Shown here: one piece after another, positions 18,702 to 39,314 of the stretch
Layout: the number at the start of each line of letters is the position of its first letter
Position numbering within the stretch: the stretch's first letter is position 1
Source of the DNA: Cordilura impudica
Lineage: Eukaryota; Arthropoda; Insecta; Diptera; Scathophagidae
NCBI GenBank assembly: GCA_963682025.1
Contig: OY821519.1
Location: 10,180,668 to 10,244,667 of the forward strand
Direction of reading: 5' to 3'
DNA length: 64,000 bases
Program-made: the position numbers and the translations under genes
The notes under the pieces: model-generated
What the model was told of the DNA's origin: nothing
The model's input: the letters and a program-made list of their open reading frames with translations, nothing else
Databases searched by the model: none

Positions 18702-19202
18702 GCACATAATTCACCAAACGAAACTTAATTGTGAGCAGAAAGGTATAATATTTTCTATTAGTAAAGAAGAGTTGAAAGCATTTTTTGGAATTATAGCAAT
18801 GAGTATCCACAGATTGCCAGAAATAAGATTGTACTGGATGGAAATATATTCAGTACCGTTTATTTCCAAAGTTATGGCTAAGGACCGTTTGGAAAAAATT
18901 ATTTCCAGCATACATTTTGTCAATAATGCTGAACAGCCAGGCCGTGACGACCCATCATACGATCAAGCCTTTAAAATTAGGCCAGTAATAAATCATTTCA
19001 ACTCAGCATTTGGAAAAAATTTAAGCCAAGGAAAATGCCAGTCTATAGACGAGCATATGGTAAAATTTAAGGGCCGCAATATAATGAAACAATATATGAA
19101 AGACAAACCCATAAACTGGGGGGTTTAAATTGTGGTGTCGTTCTGATGGTTACCTATATAAAATTGATATACATACAGGCAAAAAGGAACAGAGAGAGGT
19201 TG

Positions 19203-19241
19203 CACAGTGTCGTGATTTCATATAACGAGTGGCCATAAATA
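19203..19241 (+). other. Transib terminus with RSS-like 23-nt spacing
   Basis: Heptamer CACAGTG (19203-19209), then exactly 23 nt, then CCATAAATA (19233-19241). The heptamer is identical to the consensus heptamer of vertebrate V(D)J recombination signals. Confidence 0.75.
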
Positions 19242-19762
19242 GAAGGAGCGGTTGTAAAGAGTTGAAATTTGGCACACATATTTTATTTGATAAAAGAAAA
19301 AAAATATTAAAATTTCAAAAACTTTGGAGCAAGGATTCGTGTCCTTCCCATATATCCTGAAATTAAAAAACGTCATAAAAGATGGAAAAGAAGTCCGACC
19401 TTTATGAAATTTTGTATAGTCATTTAGTTTGATACCCTAAATGATTTGATAAAATTTTATCCAAATCGGAGCAAGGACACGCCTTCTCAAAAATGTCCTT
19501 TTTCAAAAAATTAAAAAAAAAGTGAACAAAAAATTAAATTTTTAAATTAATTTGATACACGAAACACTTGTAACAAGAATAATGTGTGTGTCAAATTTTA
19601 TCCAATTTTAATAATTTTTAACAATTTTGTATGGAAAGTAAAGTAAATGTTACTTAATGTTTACACTTGTTTTATTATTTAAATAAATTAAAAAAAATAA
19701 TGTTTTGAACAATTTTTATTTATTAAATACAATAAAAAAGAAAATGTTAGAATTTGTTTACT

Positions 19763-21764
19763 CTATTCATCCGAATCACTTTCTTCAAGCTGGTTTATTA
19801 AATTTTCTTGATTATCCGCATAAATATTATTTTCCTCAATAATGAAATCATTTATTTCTTCACAACTCCTTTTACTTATTTTATCTTCTTTTATATGTAT
19901 AGATAACTTTGGTTCAGACTGCAAAACCATTCTTTCTATTAGGTCTTTATTAGTATTTGTACGACTATTTTTTCGAGTATGGTTTAAACGAGTTTTTCTA
20001 AAAACTTTATGAGTGGCTTCTATAGCTTCCTCAGATAACATACCTACTGGAATCTTGGAGTTTTTTATAAATTCTGCTCCATGAACTAGTATTTTTGTGA
20101 AACAGTAACAGGCATACAATACCAAGAATATTTTTGAACATATAAATTCCATGTTTCTCTAAGCAGCTGTTGAAAATTTATAATATTTATTGTTTTACTG
20201 CTTGAAATAGTTTTTAAAATCAAAGAAAAATTTTTAATTAGTGATGGGTCAACCTGCGTTATGCTAGATGAGACATCAATGTTGCTGAAAAACCGTCTCG
20301 CAGTATTCCCATCATTTGTTGTACCAAAACCGGTTTTAACTTTATCTACATTTAATCCAAGCTCCTTTTTAAAATCTTCCTGAATTTTAGATTTTCTTTG
20401 ATTTAAAATTTGCTTATCATCATTTTTTGAAACCCTCCAAATTTTTAGAGGCAACCTGTAAGCTATGTGTAATATACACTCAAAGAATTTTATCCATGCA
20501 TGTAATGTTGATAATCCGTGTTTATGTAATTCTTCTCTTTTTTTAAGGTCCCTCTCAAATACTTGAATTAAATTCATTTCAGTGGGTTTTGCACCGCAAA
20601 CAAAACAAGAAGAACTGCTTTTGTTATCAGCTAACACATTAAGAGCAGCTCCATCTACCATTGTTAATCTCATGTCAAAATGAACGGTAAGGTTTTTTTA
20701 TCAGAAACATAATCAAATGTTTAGTTTTAACCAAATCCGAATTTTCTTTTTCCATATAATAGCATATTGGACGACAATACCTTATTGAGGAATGTTTTAA
20801 ATTATTCCATAAACTGTTTTCTGTAGCCCAGTCTAAAAATCTTAATGGAACAAATGAAGCAACAAATAAATATTCATCGCGCGAATTTGGATCATTAAAC
20901 TTTTGTTTGTAATTGCTATGGCCTGAACTACCATCAAATCCCCATTTAATTTCCAAAACTACATCATTTTGGGTTTCAAAATCATTTAAATCTAATAAAC
21001 TTTTGGCTGTCATATTTAAAATATTTTGTAATGGTATTTTTACTGACGTTTCTGATATTGATATATTTTCCGGAATATATTTTTTCTTTGCTTTTTGTAG
21101 ACTATAATATGATGGAAAACAGTTCTTGTGCACATCATTTACAACCGTTCGCATATTTTCATATTGTCTATAAGATAGATCATTATCTATTAATAATGCT
21201 AAAGCCTTTTCTACGGAAATAGAAGTTTCTGGAGTTGGGCTAGATACTCTTTGAACAGCTCTTCGTAATTGCTCAGGGCATGTAGACCTCACAAGATCAT
21301 CTACCTTTCTTCTTTTGGTTCGTTCAGAACTTTCATTAAAGCCTACTCTTGGTCTTCCTTTACGACTTGTACTTGGTCCCTTAATAAATAAAAAAAAATG
21401 TTATTTATTATATTATAAAAAATAAATATTCACATAATGATATTACAATGTATATATCTTCTTCTTCTTCCACTTCTTCTTCTTCTTCTACTTCTTCCAC
21501 TTCTTCATCAACTTCTTCCACATCAAAAAATGAATTTAGCCAGAAAAAGTTTTTGTTTTCAAACACAGATTTCTTTCTGTAGCATTTTTCCCAACTTTTT
21601 TTTATTCTAGCTAGAATTGATTTAAGTCTTACAATACTTTTTTGTTGCAATTGTGTCTTAAATTTATATTCTAAATGATTTTTAATTTCCGTAAGGGCTA
21701 GGGAGTGTGTTGTATGTTTGTGCCAAATATAGAAAAATTGCCTAATTTGCACTTGCCTTGACAC
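19763..21764 (-). pseudogene. Transib transposase (RAG1-related), frameshifted
   Basis: The minus strand carries four frames in order. 21764-21408: N-terminal region with LKSILARIKKSWEKCYRKK and a Glu-rich run from a (TTC)n tract. After a likely intron of about 70 bp (acceptor TTTATTTATTAAG near 21380): GRPRVGFNES and RTKRRK; 21292-20675: IKWGFDGSSGHSNYKQKF (first catalytic Asp), SFVPLRFLDW, YCRPICYY; 20673-20086: LTMVDGAALN (second Asp), SSCFVCGAKPTEMN (zinc Cys pair), LSTLHAWIKFFECILHIAYR, TTNDGNTARRFFS; 20152-19763: SEEAIEATHKVF (catalytic Glu) and an acidic tail. Frameshifts near 20675 and 20120, the latter by the HK..VHG zinc-His motif, make it inactive. Confidence 0.92.
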
Positions 21765-22260
21765 TGAAAAAGTGAAAAAAATTGACTATTCTACCAAGCT
21801 CTGCAAAAGAGACCCATTTTTTTTTAATGCACATACTTGTATCAATATTATATTAAAGTATCAAAAATAAACTCGAATAAACTTTTTTTTAGGCCTTCTA
21901 TAAACTTGTAAGTTGTAAACAATTAAAAAAATTTATTTCTGTTTACATTCAGAATAACGGTACAAAACACATGATGAATTAAATGTAAAAAAAATATTTT
22001 AGTAATGTCATACTTTAATATTTATAAACAATTTAACTGCATTATCGACAATTTACGTTAAATTAACCCATTTGTATATATGCTATTTTTCACGTTTCTT
22101 GTGTGCATATTGCATACTTACCAAAAACTTTCAACTTTGATTGGCTATAACTTTGTCAAAAATATTTTTTTTTCAAAAATTCTTTTTGATTATTGTAATT
22201 TGAAATATGGTTTATCAAACTGTTTCAACAGATTTTTAAAATTCCAAAAGTCGTTTTTTT

Positions 22261-22289
22261 TTATTTTTGGCCGCTGACACCACACAGTG
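22261..22289 (-). other. Transib terminus with RSS-like 12-nt spacing
   Basis: Read on the minus strand from 22289: CACTGTG, then exactly 12 nt (TGGTGTCAGCGG), then CCAAAAATA (22270-22262). The partner end has the same nine-base block at 23 nt. Confidence 0.75.
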
Positions 22290-22925
22290 GGTTGCCATTG
22301 GCGAATCCGTTATTATAGATATGGCAGCAGGTCTGGAAAATATGGGAATAGAACTATATTTCGATAACTTTTTCAATAGTCCAATATGTTATGTGTGTTA
22401 CTGAATTGGTTGTTTTTTCTTTGTTTTTTAATTATGCAATATTAAATAAATATAAAAAAAAAAAATCAAGAAAGTCTCCTTTATTTTCTGTATGTATAGT
22501 TGACCTTTGAGTAGTTAATTAATTTATTCTTTATTTTTACCTTTGACGACGAATGGAACACATATGTCCCATAATATTTTCAGCCCCCCCCCCGTGAAAA
22601 GTATAGAACTAATTTAAAATTCGTTCATCAATAAATTTATATAAAGCATTGGTACATCTAATACTAAAAGTTAATCCAACAGTATCTTTTAGAACCCGAG
22701 ATATTAGGAAACTAAAATTGCTGAAATAAAAATACAAATTTCTGACTTTGAGATGCCCTTAACCCCAGTTGAAACAATAAACCCTTAAATTTAACATGAA
22801 ACCCAGATAAGGCATTTGTTTTTTATCGAACAACACCTATTTAGTCCAAATCAATTGAAAAATGTACCTGTAATGACGAAAAACCAAATGGGACATATGT
22901 GTCCCATTCGTCGTCAAAGGGTTAA

Positions 22926-35464: not shown

Positions 35465-35502
35465 CACTGTGGCTCAAATTTTGATTTCATTGGCCAAAAG
35501 TC
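35465..35502 (+). other. Transib 2 left TIR, heptamer plus A-rich block
   Basis: CACTGTG (35465-35471), 22-nt spacer, CCAAAAGTC (35494-35502). The heptamer flanks the cleavage site next to the CGACT TSD. Confidence 0.85.
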
Positions 35503-36539
35503 AAATTTTTTTTTGTCATCGATTTTTAAAATTTTGACTCCTTTTTGTAGCTTATATATCCAGATTAAGGTAGCCAAAAAATTAGGTTAAACTATTGATA
35601 ATTGTGGGCGTGGCATGCTGTCAAACTCAACTGTTTTTTTTTAATTCAGCAAAAGGTGTTTTTTTTTTTGTTTTTTATCAAAAATAAATGGTTACTACTC
35701 GCAAGCTATCATCGATATTGGCCTGCGGTCTTTTTTATAATGTTAGTAGGATTATAGTCTTTAGTTTTTGTAAGTAGTCACAGTTCTAACGTTTGATATT
35801 AGGGGCGTTATGAAATATTTATGAAACCACTATATTTTTCTCAAATTTAAACTTTAGTGGAATAGAACTTCTAAAGGAAGTAAGGGAACAAGAAACGTAT
35901 ACCACCCGGAGAAAGGCGAATGTATCCTGTTTAACCCTATATATACTTTTGCACCCCCCACGAGCCCCCGGTAGAACACTTTTTTCATTTTAATGAAATT
36001 ACTCTAAAAAAATTACTCTAAAAAAAATTTTGTTTTTTTACTTTAGACTACGTAAAAGTAAAATAATTAAATAAAATACCTGCGAAAGGGTTTATTGGCT
36101 TTGTTTTGATCAGCAAAAAAATAAGTCATAAAATAATCACAATAGGTTCTACAGTAAACAAATGATCTCTTTCTTAATTTACCTGTTGTCAAATTTAAGG
36201 GTCAACCAAAGTCATAAACAATTTTATAAGTTTGTCAATAATCGCGGCACTAAACCACTAAAGATAAAAAACCACCCCATATTGGCGAGAAACTAATTAG
36301 TTTTACCTGATATTGAAGTCTGGATAACAAGTGCAGTTTTGTTCAATTTAAGTACTACCTGCTATGAAATTAAAGATCAATGTGTGAATAACATGTACCT
36401 AAAAATGTATAAAATGACGGATTCTATAAGGGATTACTCAATAATAAGTTAATACTTCAAGTGTACGGACGTATATTCGCAAGTGATAAAAAGTGATAAA
36501 AAAGTGATAACAGACGCAAATAAAAATATTGAGAAAAAT

Positions 36540-38561
36540 ATGGAGAACTTTAGTTATAAAGAACTGGCCGAAGAGTATTTTCGAAACAAAAACCAGGAAG
36601 ATGTTCTTAGTTACGTTAAAATAAAATTAAACTTAAATTCGTCTAGTACCGAAATACAAGAGCAATTATCTAATTTCGTCAAAGTACTAAAAAAACGATT
36701 GAAAGAAGTTAACTACTGTAAACAAAAGTTTTATAATAAAAGTGCAAACTGGTTAGAAGGCCAACTTAATGTTGGTGGAGAAACAGCAAAGCTAGATAAG
36801 GCTGGAAGACCACGCAAATCATTGGACAACTGCAGCGATAGATCTAAGAGGCGGAAACTTAAAAATTTTAACGAGGAAATTGGTTCTACAAATATAAAAG
36901 AATCTTTTCTACATCAATTACGAGCACAAAACCAATTAACAAAAGTGGATATCATTGAAAAAACTTGTAATGCTAGTCCAGTGAGAACAAAGCGAATTCT
37001 TAAAAGTATACCAACTCCGAGCGATGCAAAACAGTTCACAAATGAGGAGGCATTAGCATTATTTCTGGATTTGAAATTAACAAAACACCAATATATTCAG
37101 CTCAGATTGCGTGCGATTGAAAAAGGCTCAAATATGTATCCAGCATATCATCACATAACAGCTGCTAAAATAGACTGTTTGCCATCAAAGGACACTATTA
37201 CAATCACACCAATTTCGGCAGAAGTACAACTACAATCTTTACTTGATCACACAGCCAAACGCTTGCTACAATCAATAACAGGAACTGAGTTAAAGAAATA
37301 TGGAAACACAAAGTTAATTCTATTTTGTAAATGGATTTGTGATGGTTCTTCGGGACAAAAACAATACAAACAAGTTGTATGTGAAAATATTACGGACTCA
37401 GATATGTTCATGGTATCATTTGTACCATTGCGATTGAAAAAGATTTTGGAAGATTCGGAGCCTTCGAGTAGTACAACGCAAACAATGGATATTTGGAAAA
37501 ATGAGACACCATCTTCTACGAAATACTGCAGGCCAATCAAATTTGAATTCAAAAAAGAAAGTCATGATGCCATTAACAAAGAAGTTAGTGATATCAAGGC
37601 CCAAATAGCAACACTACAGCCATTACAATTACAGTTAGATGGGCAGCAAATTGAAGTAAGCTACCAATTAGTGCTGACAATGATAGATGGAAAAGTAGGT
37701 CAGGCTTTGACTAACACGAAGGCTGCATCCAGCTGCATTATATGCCAAGCAACATCAAGCCAATTAAACCAAGTCCCGACAAAATCATTCGATAATACCG
37801 ATGCCTTCGAATTTGGATTATCACCACTACATGCAAGAATACGACTTATGGAACACATACTAAAAATCAGTTATGATTTGGATTTCGGGCCTTCAGGATC
37901 AATAAGAAACAACGAAACCAACAAAGAGTTAAGAAGTTCAAAAAAGAAACATGTTCAAGATGAATATCGCAAATTTGGATTGATTATAGATCAGCCAAAA
38001 CAAGGGTCAGGCAATACAAATGATGGCAATACCGCAAGAAGATTCTTTTCAGATCCAGAAACAGCATCTGAAATAACAGGAGTGGATTTAAACCTTATTT
38101 TCAGATTTAAAATAATCCTAGAAGTACTTGCGTGCAATGAAGAAATTGACTCTAGAAAATTTGGAGATTATGCTAAGGAAACTGCAAAAATATATACAAC
38201 CAACTACCCATGGAGAAATATGTCTGCAACAGTCCACAAAATCCTTTATCATGGAGAAGATGTCATTAAATATCATTTGGTGCCACTTGGAGATCTATCA
38301 GAGGAGGCTCAGGAAAAAAGGAACAAGGATTACAGATTTTATAGACAGCACAATACTAGAAAAATGTCACGAAATTCCACAAATGAAGATCTATTTAATA
38401 TATTATTGGCAACGTCAGATCCGTTCATCTCCAGTATTCGAAATCAATGGAAAGTGGAACATCGGGATTTAGATGAAGAAGCCAAAAAACTACTAAAGAA
38501 CAGAAATAGCACAGAACAAAATATGGAATATTTGCAATCAATATTTGAGTCTAATGAATAA
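36540..38561 (+). CDS. Transib transposase, intact (673 aa), RAG1-related DDE recombinase
   Basis: Cut-and-paste transposase that would bind and cleave the CACWGTG ends. The open frame extends up to a GTG at 36483, but the first ATG is 36540; I take that start (673 aa). Residues 89-93 GRPRK and 101-106 RSKRRK give basic, AT-hook/NLS-like patches. The core shows ICDGSSGQKQYKQ with D268, SFVPLRLKKIL, KYCRPIKFEF, LTMIDGKVGQAL with D383, SSCIICQA with C399 and C402, LSPLHARIRLMEHILKIS, NTNDGNTARRFFS, SATVHKILYHG with H566 and H571, and EEAQEKRNK with E592. These match by order and spacing the RAG1 catalytic DDE and the CxxC/HxxxxH zinc site. Intron-free; a polyadenylation signal AATAAA follows at 38624. 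No stop or frameshift. Confidence 0.93.
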   Translation: MENFSYKELAEEYFRNKNQEDVLSYVKIKLNLNSSSTEIQEQLSNFVKVLKKRLKEVNYCKQKFYNKSANWLEGQLNVGGETAKLDKAGRPRKSLDNCSDRSKRRKLKNFNEEIGSTNIKESFLHQLRAQNQLTKVDIIEKTCNASPVRTKRILKSIPTPSDAKQFTNEEALALFLDLKLTKHQYIQLRLRAIEKGSNMYPAYHHITAAKIDCLPSKDTITITPISAEVQLQSLLDHTAKRLLQSITGTELKKYGNTKLILFCKWICDGSSGQKQYKQVVCENITDSDMFMVSFVPLRLKKILEDSEPSSSTTQTMDIWKNETPSSTKYCRPIKFEFKKESHDAINKEVSDIKAQIATLQPLQLQLDGQQIEVSYQLVLTMIDGKVGQALTNTKAASSCIICQATSSQLNQVPTKSFDNTDAFEFGLSPLHARIRLMEHILKISYDLDFGPSGSIRNNETNKELRSSKKKHVQDEYRKFGLIIDQPKQGSGNTNDGNTARRFFSDPETASEITGVDLNLIFRFKIILEVLACNEEIDSRKFGDYAKETAKIYTTNYPWRNMSATVHKILYHGEDVIKYHLVPLGDLSEEAQEKRNKDYRFYRQHNTRKMSRNSTNEDLFNILLATSDPFISSIRNQWKVEHRDLDEEAKKLLKNRNSTEQNMEYLQSIFESNE

Positions 38562-39276
38562 TAATTATAATTGCCTTTCATTGTTATTTAAGTACGAAAA
38601 ACATAGTATTAGTAAAAAATAATAATAAACAGAACCTACCATTGTTACAAATGCTATTTAAATCTATTGCAGTTTTTATTCTTAAAAGGTTTCCCACATA
38701 TGAATGCAATGTTTTAATAGATAAGAAAGATTCAAAAAATAAGAACCCATATTTTCATATCAAAATTAAAAAAAAAATTAGAATCATTGCGCTAATGTTT
38801 AGCAGATTTATTTAGCTAGTGTAACAAATTAGGCAGCAAACACTAATAAATTTTTCTGTAGTAATAATAATATTCCTTGAGTGTAAGCAAATTGCAAATT
38901 TGATAGCAAACATTTTTAATTTTTTAGTAATACTAGTTAAATTTCTAGTGAATTTTACTATTTTGTTGCGTGTAAAAATTTTTTTGAGTGTAAAAATTTT
39001 TTTGAGTGTAAGCATTAAAAAAATTTCATTATTACAAAAAATGTTTATAATAATTATTTAACTCCAAATATGACACTTTCTAATAAATAAAAATAAATAA
39101 AAAAAAACATATATCACGCTAAAAGTTAAAAAAAATCAAAAGTTAAACTTTGACCTAGAATTCCTTAAAAAGTACTCAATCAATTTAAATGAAATTCACA
39201 CTGAGTCAAGATCAACTATCTATCTATCTACTAAAAAAAACAGTACTAAAATATTTTGATCGGTTCAAAAGTTACA
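38562..39276. other. Transib 2 3' non-coding region
   Basis: AT-rich 3' UTR with AATAAA at 38624-38629 and a local duplication of GTGTAAAAATTTTTTTGA at about 38971-39008. Confidence 0.7.
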
Positions 39277-39314
39277 GAATTTTGGCCAATGAAAAATGAT
39301 TTTCAGCCACTGTG
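39277..39314 (-). other. Transib 2 right TIR, heptamer plus A-rich block
   Basis: Minus strand from 39314: CACAGTG, 22-nt spacer, CCAAAATTC. Spacer length equals that at the left end, unlike the decayed copy at 19203-22289. Confidence 0.85.

Follow-up and report, generated by a model that had tools for sequence, protein, structure and literature searches.

A Transib family with unequal end spacers of 12 and 23 nucleotides in the genome of Cordilura impudica

A transposon whose two ends differ in the distance between a terminal heptamer and an A-rich inner block raises the question whether this difference belongs to one copy or to its whole family and, in the latter case, whether the transposase makes use of it. 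Such a transposon lies at positions 19203 to 22289 of a 64,000-nt stretch of the genome of the fly Cordilura impudica (assembly GCA_963682025.1, contig OY821519.1, positions 10,180,668 to 10,244,667; this whole stretch is referred to as the window). The first-pass annotation had placed two readings side by side, namely that asymmetric ends are normal for the sub-family, or that one end had lost 11 bp by chance.

The element, its ends and its insertion site

The element at 19203 to 22289 is 3087 bp long and, on the evidence of its sequence, is a member of the Transib superfamily. It is flanked by a perfect 5-bp target site duplication, GGTTG, at 19198 to 19202 and again at 22290 to 22294. Both termini start with CAC and are heptamer-like. 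On the plus strand, the left end consists of the heptamer CACAGTG (19203 to 19209), the 23-nt spacer TCGTGATTTCATATAACGAGTGG (19210 to 19232) and the A-rich block CCATAAATA (19233 to 19241), which is contained in the motif GGCCATAAATA (19231 to 19241). The right end, on the minus strand, consists of the heptamer CACTGTG (22283 to 22289), the 12-nt spacer TGGTGTCAGCGG (22271 to 22282) and the A-rich block CCAAAAATA (22262 to 22270), which is contained in GGCCAAAAATA. Since the transposase gene is on the minus strand, the end in front of this gene is the 12-nt one, and the end that follows it is the 23-nt one. The two ends are thus as the first-pass annotation had described them, and the same is true for the difference of 11 nt, about one helical turn, between them. 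It should be noted that the values 12 and 23 hinge on the chosen start of the nine-base block, whereas the difference of 11 nt is the same for any start.

The left inner motif GGCCATAAATA equals the right end in 10 of 11 bases, and when the right-end sequence was shuffled 100,000 times, a match of this quality turned up at any position in 107 cases. Taken by itself, the heptamer is no more frequent in the window than expected by chance, with five matches, a number that was reached in 19 of 100 shuffles. Compared with the RSS nonamer consensus ACAAAAACC, as given in PMC10367010, the likeness of the two blocks is moderate: CCATAAATA agrees in 5 of 9 bases at 23 nt, and CCAAAAATA in 6 of 9 bases, as counted by eye, at 12 nt. 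At the 12-nt end, the A-run lying just inside agrees in 7 of 9 bases in a different register.

The insertion interrupted a relic of a piggyBac-like transposase gene on the plus strand. Its 5' part occupies 18757 to 19202, the start having been set by counting codons back, and matches PF13843 (DDE_Tnp_1_7; E=1.8e-23), which we take to be a domain of piggyBac type. The remainder follows the insertion at 22295 to 22382, with its end set by codon count. The reading frame of the relic runs on across the empty site, and the peptide over this site matches PF13843 as well (E=2.6e-6).

Spacer lengths in copies, subfamilies and other Transibs

The genome (1.49 Gb in 855 contigs) was searched with both ends of the element. 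With the right end as query, all 40 scored copies of 123 candidates were 98-100% identical and reached the terminal base; with the left end, all 40 scored copies of 392 candidates were 98-100% identical, and 39 of them reached the first base. We also searched with two patterns of heptamer-TSGTG, a free gap of 0-30 nt and GGCCAWAAATA, which yielded 211 matches for the first and 73, of the right-end type, for the second, as opposed to none for either when the patterns were read backwards. These patterns demanded an intact heptamer and motif, so that ends with damaged motifs fall outside the counts. In the 173 ends listed (100 of the 211 and all 73), every spacer was 12 or 23 nt long: the right-end type had 12 nt in 73 of 73 matches, and the 100 listed matches of the first pattern comprised 90 long ends, each of 23 nt, and 10 short ones of 12 nt. 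Two single ends with an 11-nt spacer were found at C1:167201149 and C3:8883903.

When inward-facing ends within 20 kb were joined, 65 of the 66 pairs among the ends listed were 12/23 pairs (50 from the first join, 1 from broader patterns and 14 involving short ends with G as the last base of the block), and one was a 23/23 pair. This last pair, at C2:173518774-173519720, was rejected as an element. Its flanks are mutual reverse complements and show no direct duplication, so that it represents a palindromic duplication and no insertion. The palindrome is composed of one 23-nt subfamily A end and its flank inverted about a centre, and may have arisen by inverted duplication or as an assembly artefact. 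A 23/21 pair at C1:97994003-97996835 was likewise rejected as a single element, because the five flanking bases differ, and probably represents two elements. Among the ends listed, none formed an inserted element of the 12/12 or 23/23 type. Flanking sequence was inspected in 53 of these 65 12/23 pairs. Among the insertions of subfamilies A and B (n=49), 44 had perfect 5-bp duplications and 5 had duplications with one mismatch; one further copy (L049) was kept outside this count because its outermost base is altered. The target consensus of these insertions is R-CGNCG-Y, and the 5-bp duplications are GC-rich, as in the Transib superfamily.

One 12-nt and one 23-nt spacer are therefore confirmed as fixed in the family, and asymmetric ends are normal for it, as the first of the two earlier readings had it; a consensus with equal spacers did not emerge from the collected copies. 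The idea that the 12-nt end is an 11-bp deletion private to the window copy derived some plausibility from the broken reading frame of this copy. However, it is refuted by the constant 12 nt of the right ends, the pair counts, in which the only exception is no insertion, and the presence of the 12-nt end in sister subfamilies. A chance loss at one end is likewise contradicted by the scored right ends, all of which extend to the terminal base at 98-100% identity.

The family is young and recently active. In 29 of 36 whole A copies, namely those shorter than 3.3 kb, the mean pairwise difference was 1.3% (range 0.5-2.1%); that these copies diverge little at their ends is partly due to the patterns, which demanded an intact heptamer and motif. 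The 557-aa second exon of one copy, searched against the genome, gave 85 matches (78 scored of 36,545 candidates), and 11 of the matches, the query copy included, spanned all 557 aa without an internal stop. The same end structure was found in three further subfamilies. Subfamily B has 12/23 ends (L052, L069, L076, L077) with two perfect duplications and two with one mismatch. Subfamily C, whose transposase is 63% identical to that of A over 553 aa, has 12/23 ends and perfect duplications in both cases, and subfamily D has 12/23 ends and a perfect duplication in the sole element checked. When subfamilies are compared with one another, about 360-370 nt lying inward of the 12-nt end show 46-62% identity and 2-7 gaps. 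The terminal 28 nt of this end, in contrast, are equal at 21-27 positions and were free of gaps in 23 of 23 comparisons. In C and D, the final base of the nine-base block is G at the short end and A at the long end. The family is multicopy, with 12/23 ends in four subfamilies (A, B, C and D).

Other Transibs of the same genome have other spacers. An intact neighbour on the plus strand of the window (35465 to 39314), with a 692-codon open frame and the target site duplication CGACT, has 22/22 ends, which agrees with what had been noted before. A pattern of its CACTGTG-type end has 1915 exact matches in the genome, and among the places listed all spacers were 22 nt except two of 21 nt; this pattern covers one type of end only, and the 22/22 symmetry refers to the window copy. 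Broader end patterns gave 230 and 544 matches, with 1 and 3 matches in the respective backward controls. Among the matches listed, the spacers fell into a short class of 12 and 14 nt and a long class of 21-24 nt, with one end each of 10, 11 and 16 nt and two of 20 nt as odd lengths. The tally of these spacers leaves out nine ends on C2 (five of 21 nt, one of 12 nt and three of 14 nt), which add no new length, and five cases in which the pattern started in an abutting heptamer.

A second asymmetric family, G, has 14/24 ends in eight pairs (C1:149101657-149104663 and seven others, L099-L110 and L113-L116), with four perfect duplications, three with one mismatch and one that does not match. Its spacers differ by 10 nt, which is again about one helical turn. 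The G transposase, compared in separate pieces, is 29-45% identical to that of A and 23-51% identical to that of the intact neighbour. In a tree of 17 rows (A, C, G, the neighbour and 13 homologues) with long branches and open forks, G was not firmly placed, so that the asymmetry may have had one origin or two. No report of 14/24 Transib ends was found in literature titles or the opening parts of abstracts.

Further families were seen from one end. An abundant family, F, has an end with a 21-nt spacer that occurs at C1:75403007 and in many further positions (L123, L124, L126 and L129), and about 4.4 kb of a single copy contained no partner end. One end of the F type with 10 nt (C1:169871664) resembles a loss of 11 nt, about one helical turn. 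For a family E, no right end was found in the 2.8 kb inspected, which did not include the 1.5 kb beside the left end. Separately, Transib heptamers often face away from each other across a gap of exactly 5 bp (CACTGTG-CGNCG-CACAGTG). The pattern matched at 216 places, compared with 75 for the backward pattern, and 42 of 50 distinct places among those listed had a gap of 5. Examples are C1:63395744-63395762 and C1:22370016-22370034, as well as loci L066 and L070. New Transibs seem to insert into a 5-bp site that abuts the end of an older element.

The transposase and the possible use of unequal ends

The transposase gene of the window copy is fragmented, and open frames of 205, 195 and 129 aa remain, all on the minus strand. 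A probable exon 1 corresponds to an open stretch from stop to stop at 21411 to 21785, followed by a presumed intron. The block RKGRPRVGFNESSERTKRRKVDDL is located at 21293 to 21364, the piece with the first catalytic D at 20675 to 21292 (codon 20933-20935), the piece with the second catalytic D at 20086 to 20673 (codon 20653-20655), where the frame is broken relative to the preceding piece, and the piece with the catalytic E and the C-terminus at 19763 to 20152 (codon 20030-20032). Among the open reading frames of at least 120 aa in 19203 to 22289, there was no second gene besides these transposase pieces and no RAG2-like gene. A scan of IMG/VR confirmed no relatives.

The A protein matches the HzTransib structure 6pqn with an E-value of 4.8e-99 and its D, D and E positions align with those of this enzyme, for which PMC6941560 gives the catalytic triad D126, D225 and E436. 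The match to RAG1L (6b40) has an E-value of 7.2e-5. The protein is 33% identical to that of the intact neighbour, and after one match of 98%, its next best relatives are 66, 63 and 53-55% identical, with a further one of 55% in Stomoxys calcitrans, a result that points to a fly as host. A Transib profile was built from 20 proteins, and its alignments to two RAG1 chains (6v0v and 3jbw) were inspected. The three catalytic positions align with the RAG1 stretches CDG, TGYDEK and ASEGNE, the residues of which are presumably D600, D708 and E962. The GRPR...rtkrrk block, to which RKGRPRVGFNESSERTKRRKVDDL corresponds, aligns weakly over 23 letters with the RAG1 GGRPR stretch (domain i-Evalues of 0.023 and 0.0076), which we take to be the nonamer-binding domain. 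A kinship between the two is thus weakly shown by these profile alignments.

We consider it likely, with a probability of roughly 0.7, that the window element belongs to a recently active multicopy Transib family with constitutively asymmetric ends, and that its RAG1-core-type DDE enzyme binds both the heptamer and the inner block. In this family, CACAGTG, 23 nt and a GGCC/A-rich block stand behind the transposase gene, and CACTGTG, 12 nt and a GGCC/A-rich block in front of it. The transposase is an enzyme of the RAG1-core DDE type, for which no RAG2 partner was found in the element. Its catalytic core would most likely grip the heptamers, and the GGCC/A-rich blocks would most likely be gripped by the N-terminal GRPR/RTKRRK block, which probably corresponds to the nonamer-binding domain of RAG1. 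Because 11 nt correspond to about one helical turn, the two blocks would lie on one face of the double helix at differing distances, an arrangement in space like that of a 12RSS/23RSS pair. The enzyme may pair one short with one long end, the asymmetry may matter for synapsis, and the 12-nt end may have been derived from a 23-type end by the loss of one helical turn.

Neither the pair counts nor the lack of inserted equal-ended elements among the ends listed can by themselves establish a pairing rule, since every copy of an element with unequal ends will have unequal ends too. The asymmetry could be a matter of descent, with an enzyme that does not need the block or tolerates either distance, and with an ancestral deletion simply passed on. 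This would fit with the joint inheritance of both ends by the copies, with the fact that the alignment of the solved HzTransib chain to the A protein begins only past the GRPR block, and with the symmetric ends of most Transib families, as stated in PMC8289069. Yet the block has been retained at both ends in all four subfamilies read, both spacer lengths have outlasted the divergence of the neighbouring sequence and of the C transposase described above, and G is a second family with asymmetric ends. The retention of 12 and 23 nt beside largely diverged sequence, together with the 14/24 family, argues for more than inheritance alone, and we consider an indifferent enzyme unlikely.

The asymmetry might also be functional without a 12/23 pairing rule, if the ends differed in strength or in the order of binding, one being strong and the other weak. 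The spacers are unlike in sequence as well as in length, and the G at the short end and A at the long end of the C and D blocks are in line with such a view. However, a difference in strength leaves unaccounted for why the spacers differ by close to a helical turn in two families (11 nt in 12/23 and 10 nt in 14/24), and why the length is exactly 23 nt also in long ends that carry one of several other spacer sequences and for which no partner end was found. This explanation therefore has some merit but remains doubtful to us. A more far-reaching extension of the proposed arrangement can be put forward tentatively: RAG2-free Transib transposases might possess a true pairing preference of one helical turn (12/23 or 14/24), exerted through an ancestor of the RAG1 nonamer-binding domain, in which case the 12/23 rule would be older than, or independent of, RAG2. 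We regard this as possible, although the odds are against it.

Relation to known systems

These findings bear on where the 12/23 rule came from. Within a single genome, a young 12/23 family with many copies and deep subfamilies is found next to a 14/24 family and a 22/22 relative, which together provide matched material on spacer discrimination without RAG2. Discrimination of spacer lengths by a RAG2-free enzyme would shift the ancestry of the rule back to the transposon, and its absence would make the asymmetry a remnant.

According to PMC8355894, which cites Kapitonov & Jurka 2005, terminal inverted repeats of the 12/23 type occur in Transib5 of Drosophila melanogaster and in Transib2, N1, N2 and N3 of Anopheles gambiae. 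Since 12/23 Transibs are in print for Drosophila and Anopheles, the window element adds a family to an already described type. It resembles Transib5 and Transib2, as their ends are described, in its RSS-like heptamer, A-rich block and 12/23 spacers. Unlike these entries, it comes from another genome and is young, with 73 exact right ends, and it is accompanied by several subfamilies and a 14/24 family. With HzTransib (6pqn and five further PDB entries) it shares a homologous transposase core with aligned D/D/E, but HzTransib, unlike the A family, has symmetric ends with clear similarity to the heptamer and little or no similarity to the nonamer, according to PMC8289069. The features in common with ProtoRAG and RAGL elements are a RAG1-like enzyme, CAC ends and GC-biased 5-bp duplications, and amphioxus ProtoRAG likewise has unequal ends, of 27/31 (PMC8355894, PMC8289069 and PMC7204232); PMC8289069 describes ProtoRAG as dependent on these unequal ends. 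ProtoRAG and RAGL elements differ from the window element in that they carry RAG2L and have other spacer lengths. With the 12RSS and 23RSS of V(D)J recombination, finally, the element has in common the heptamer CACAGTG, spacers of 12 and 23 nt and an A-rich block; it differs from them in having RAG2 absent and a nonamer agreeing in 5-6 of 9 bases, and in that these sequences form the ends of a transposon rather than joining signals.
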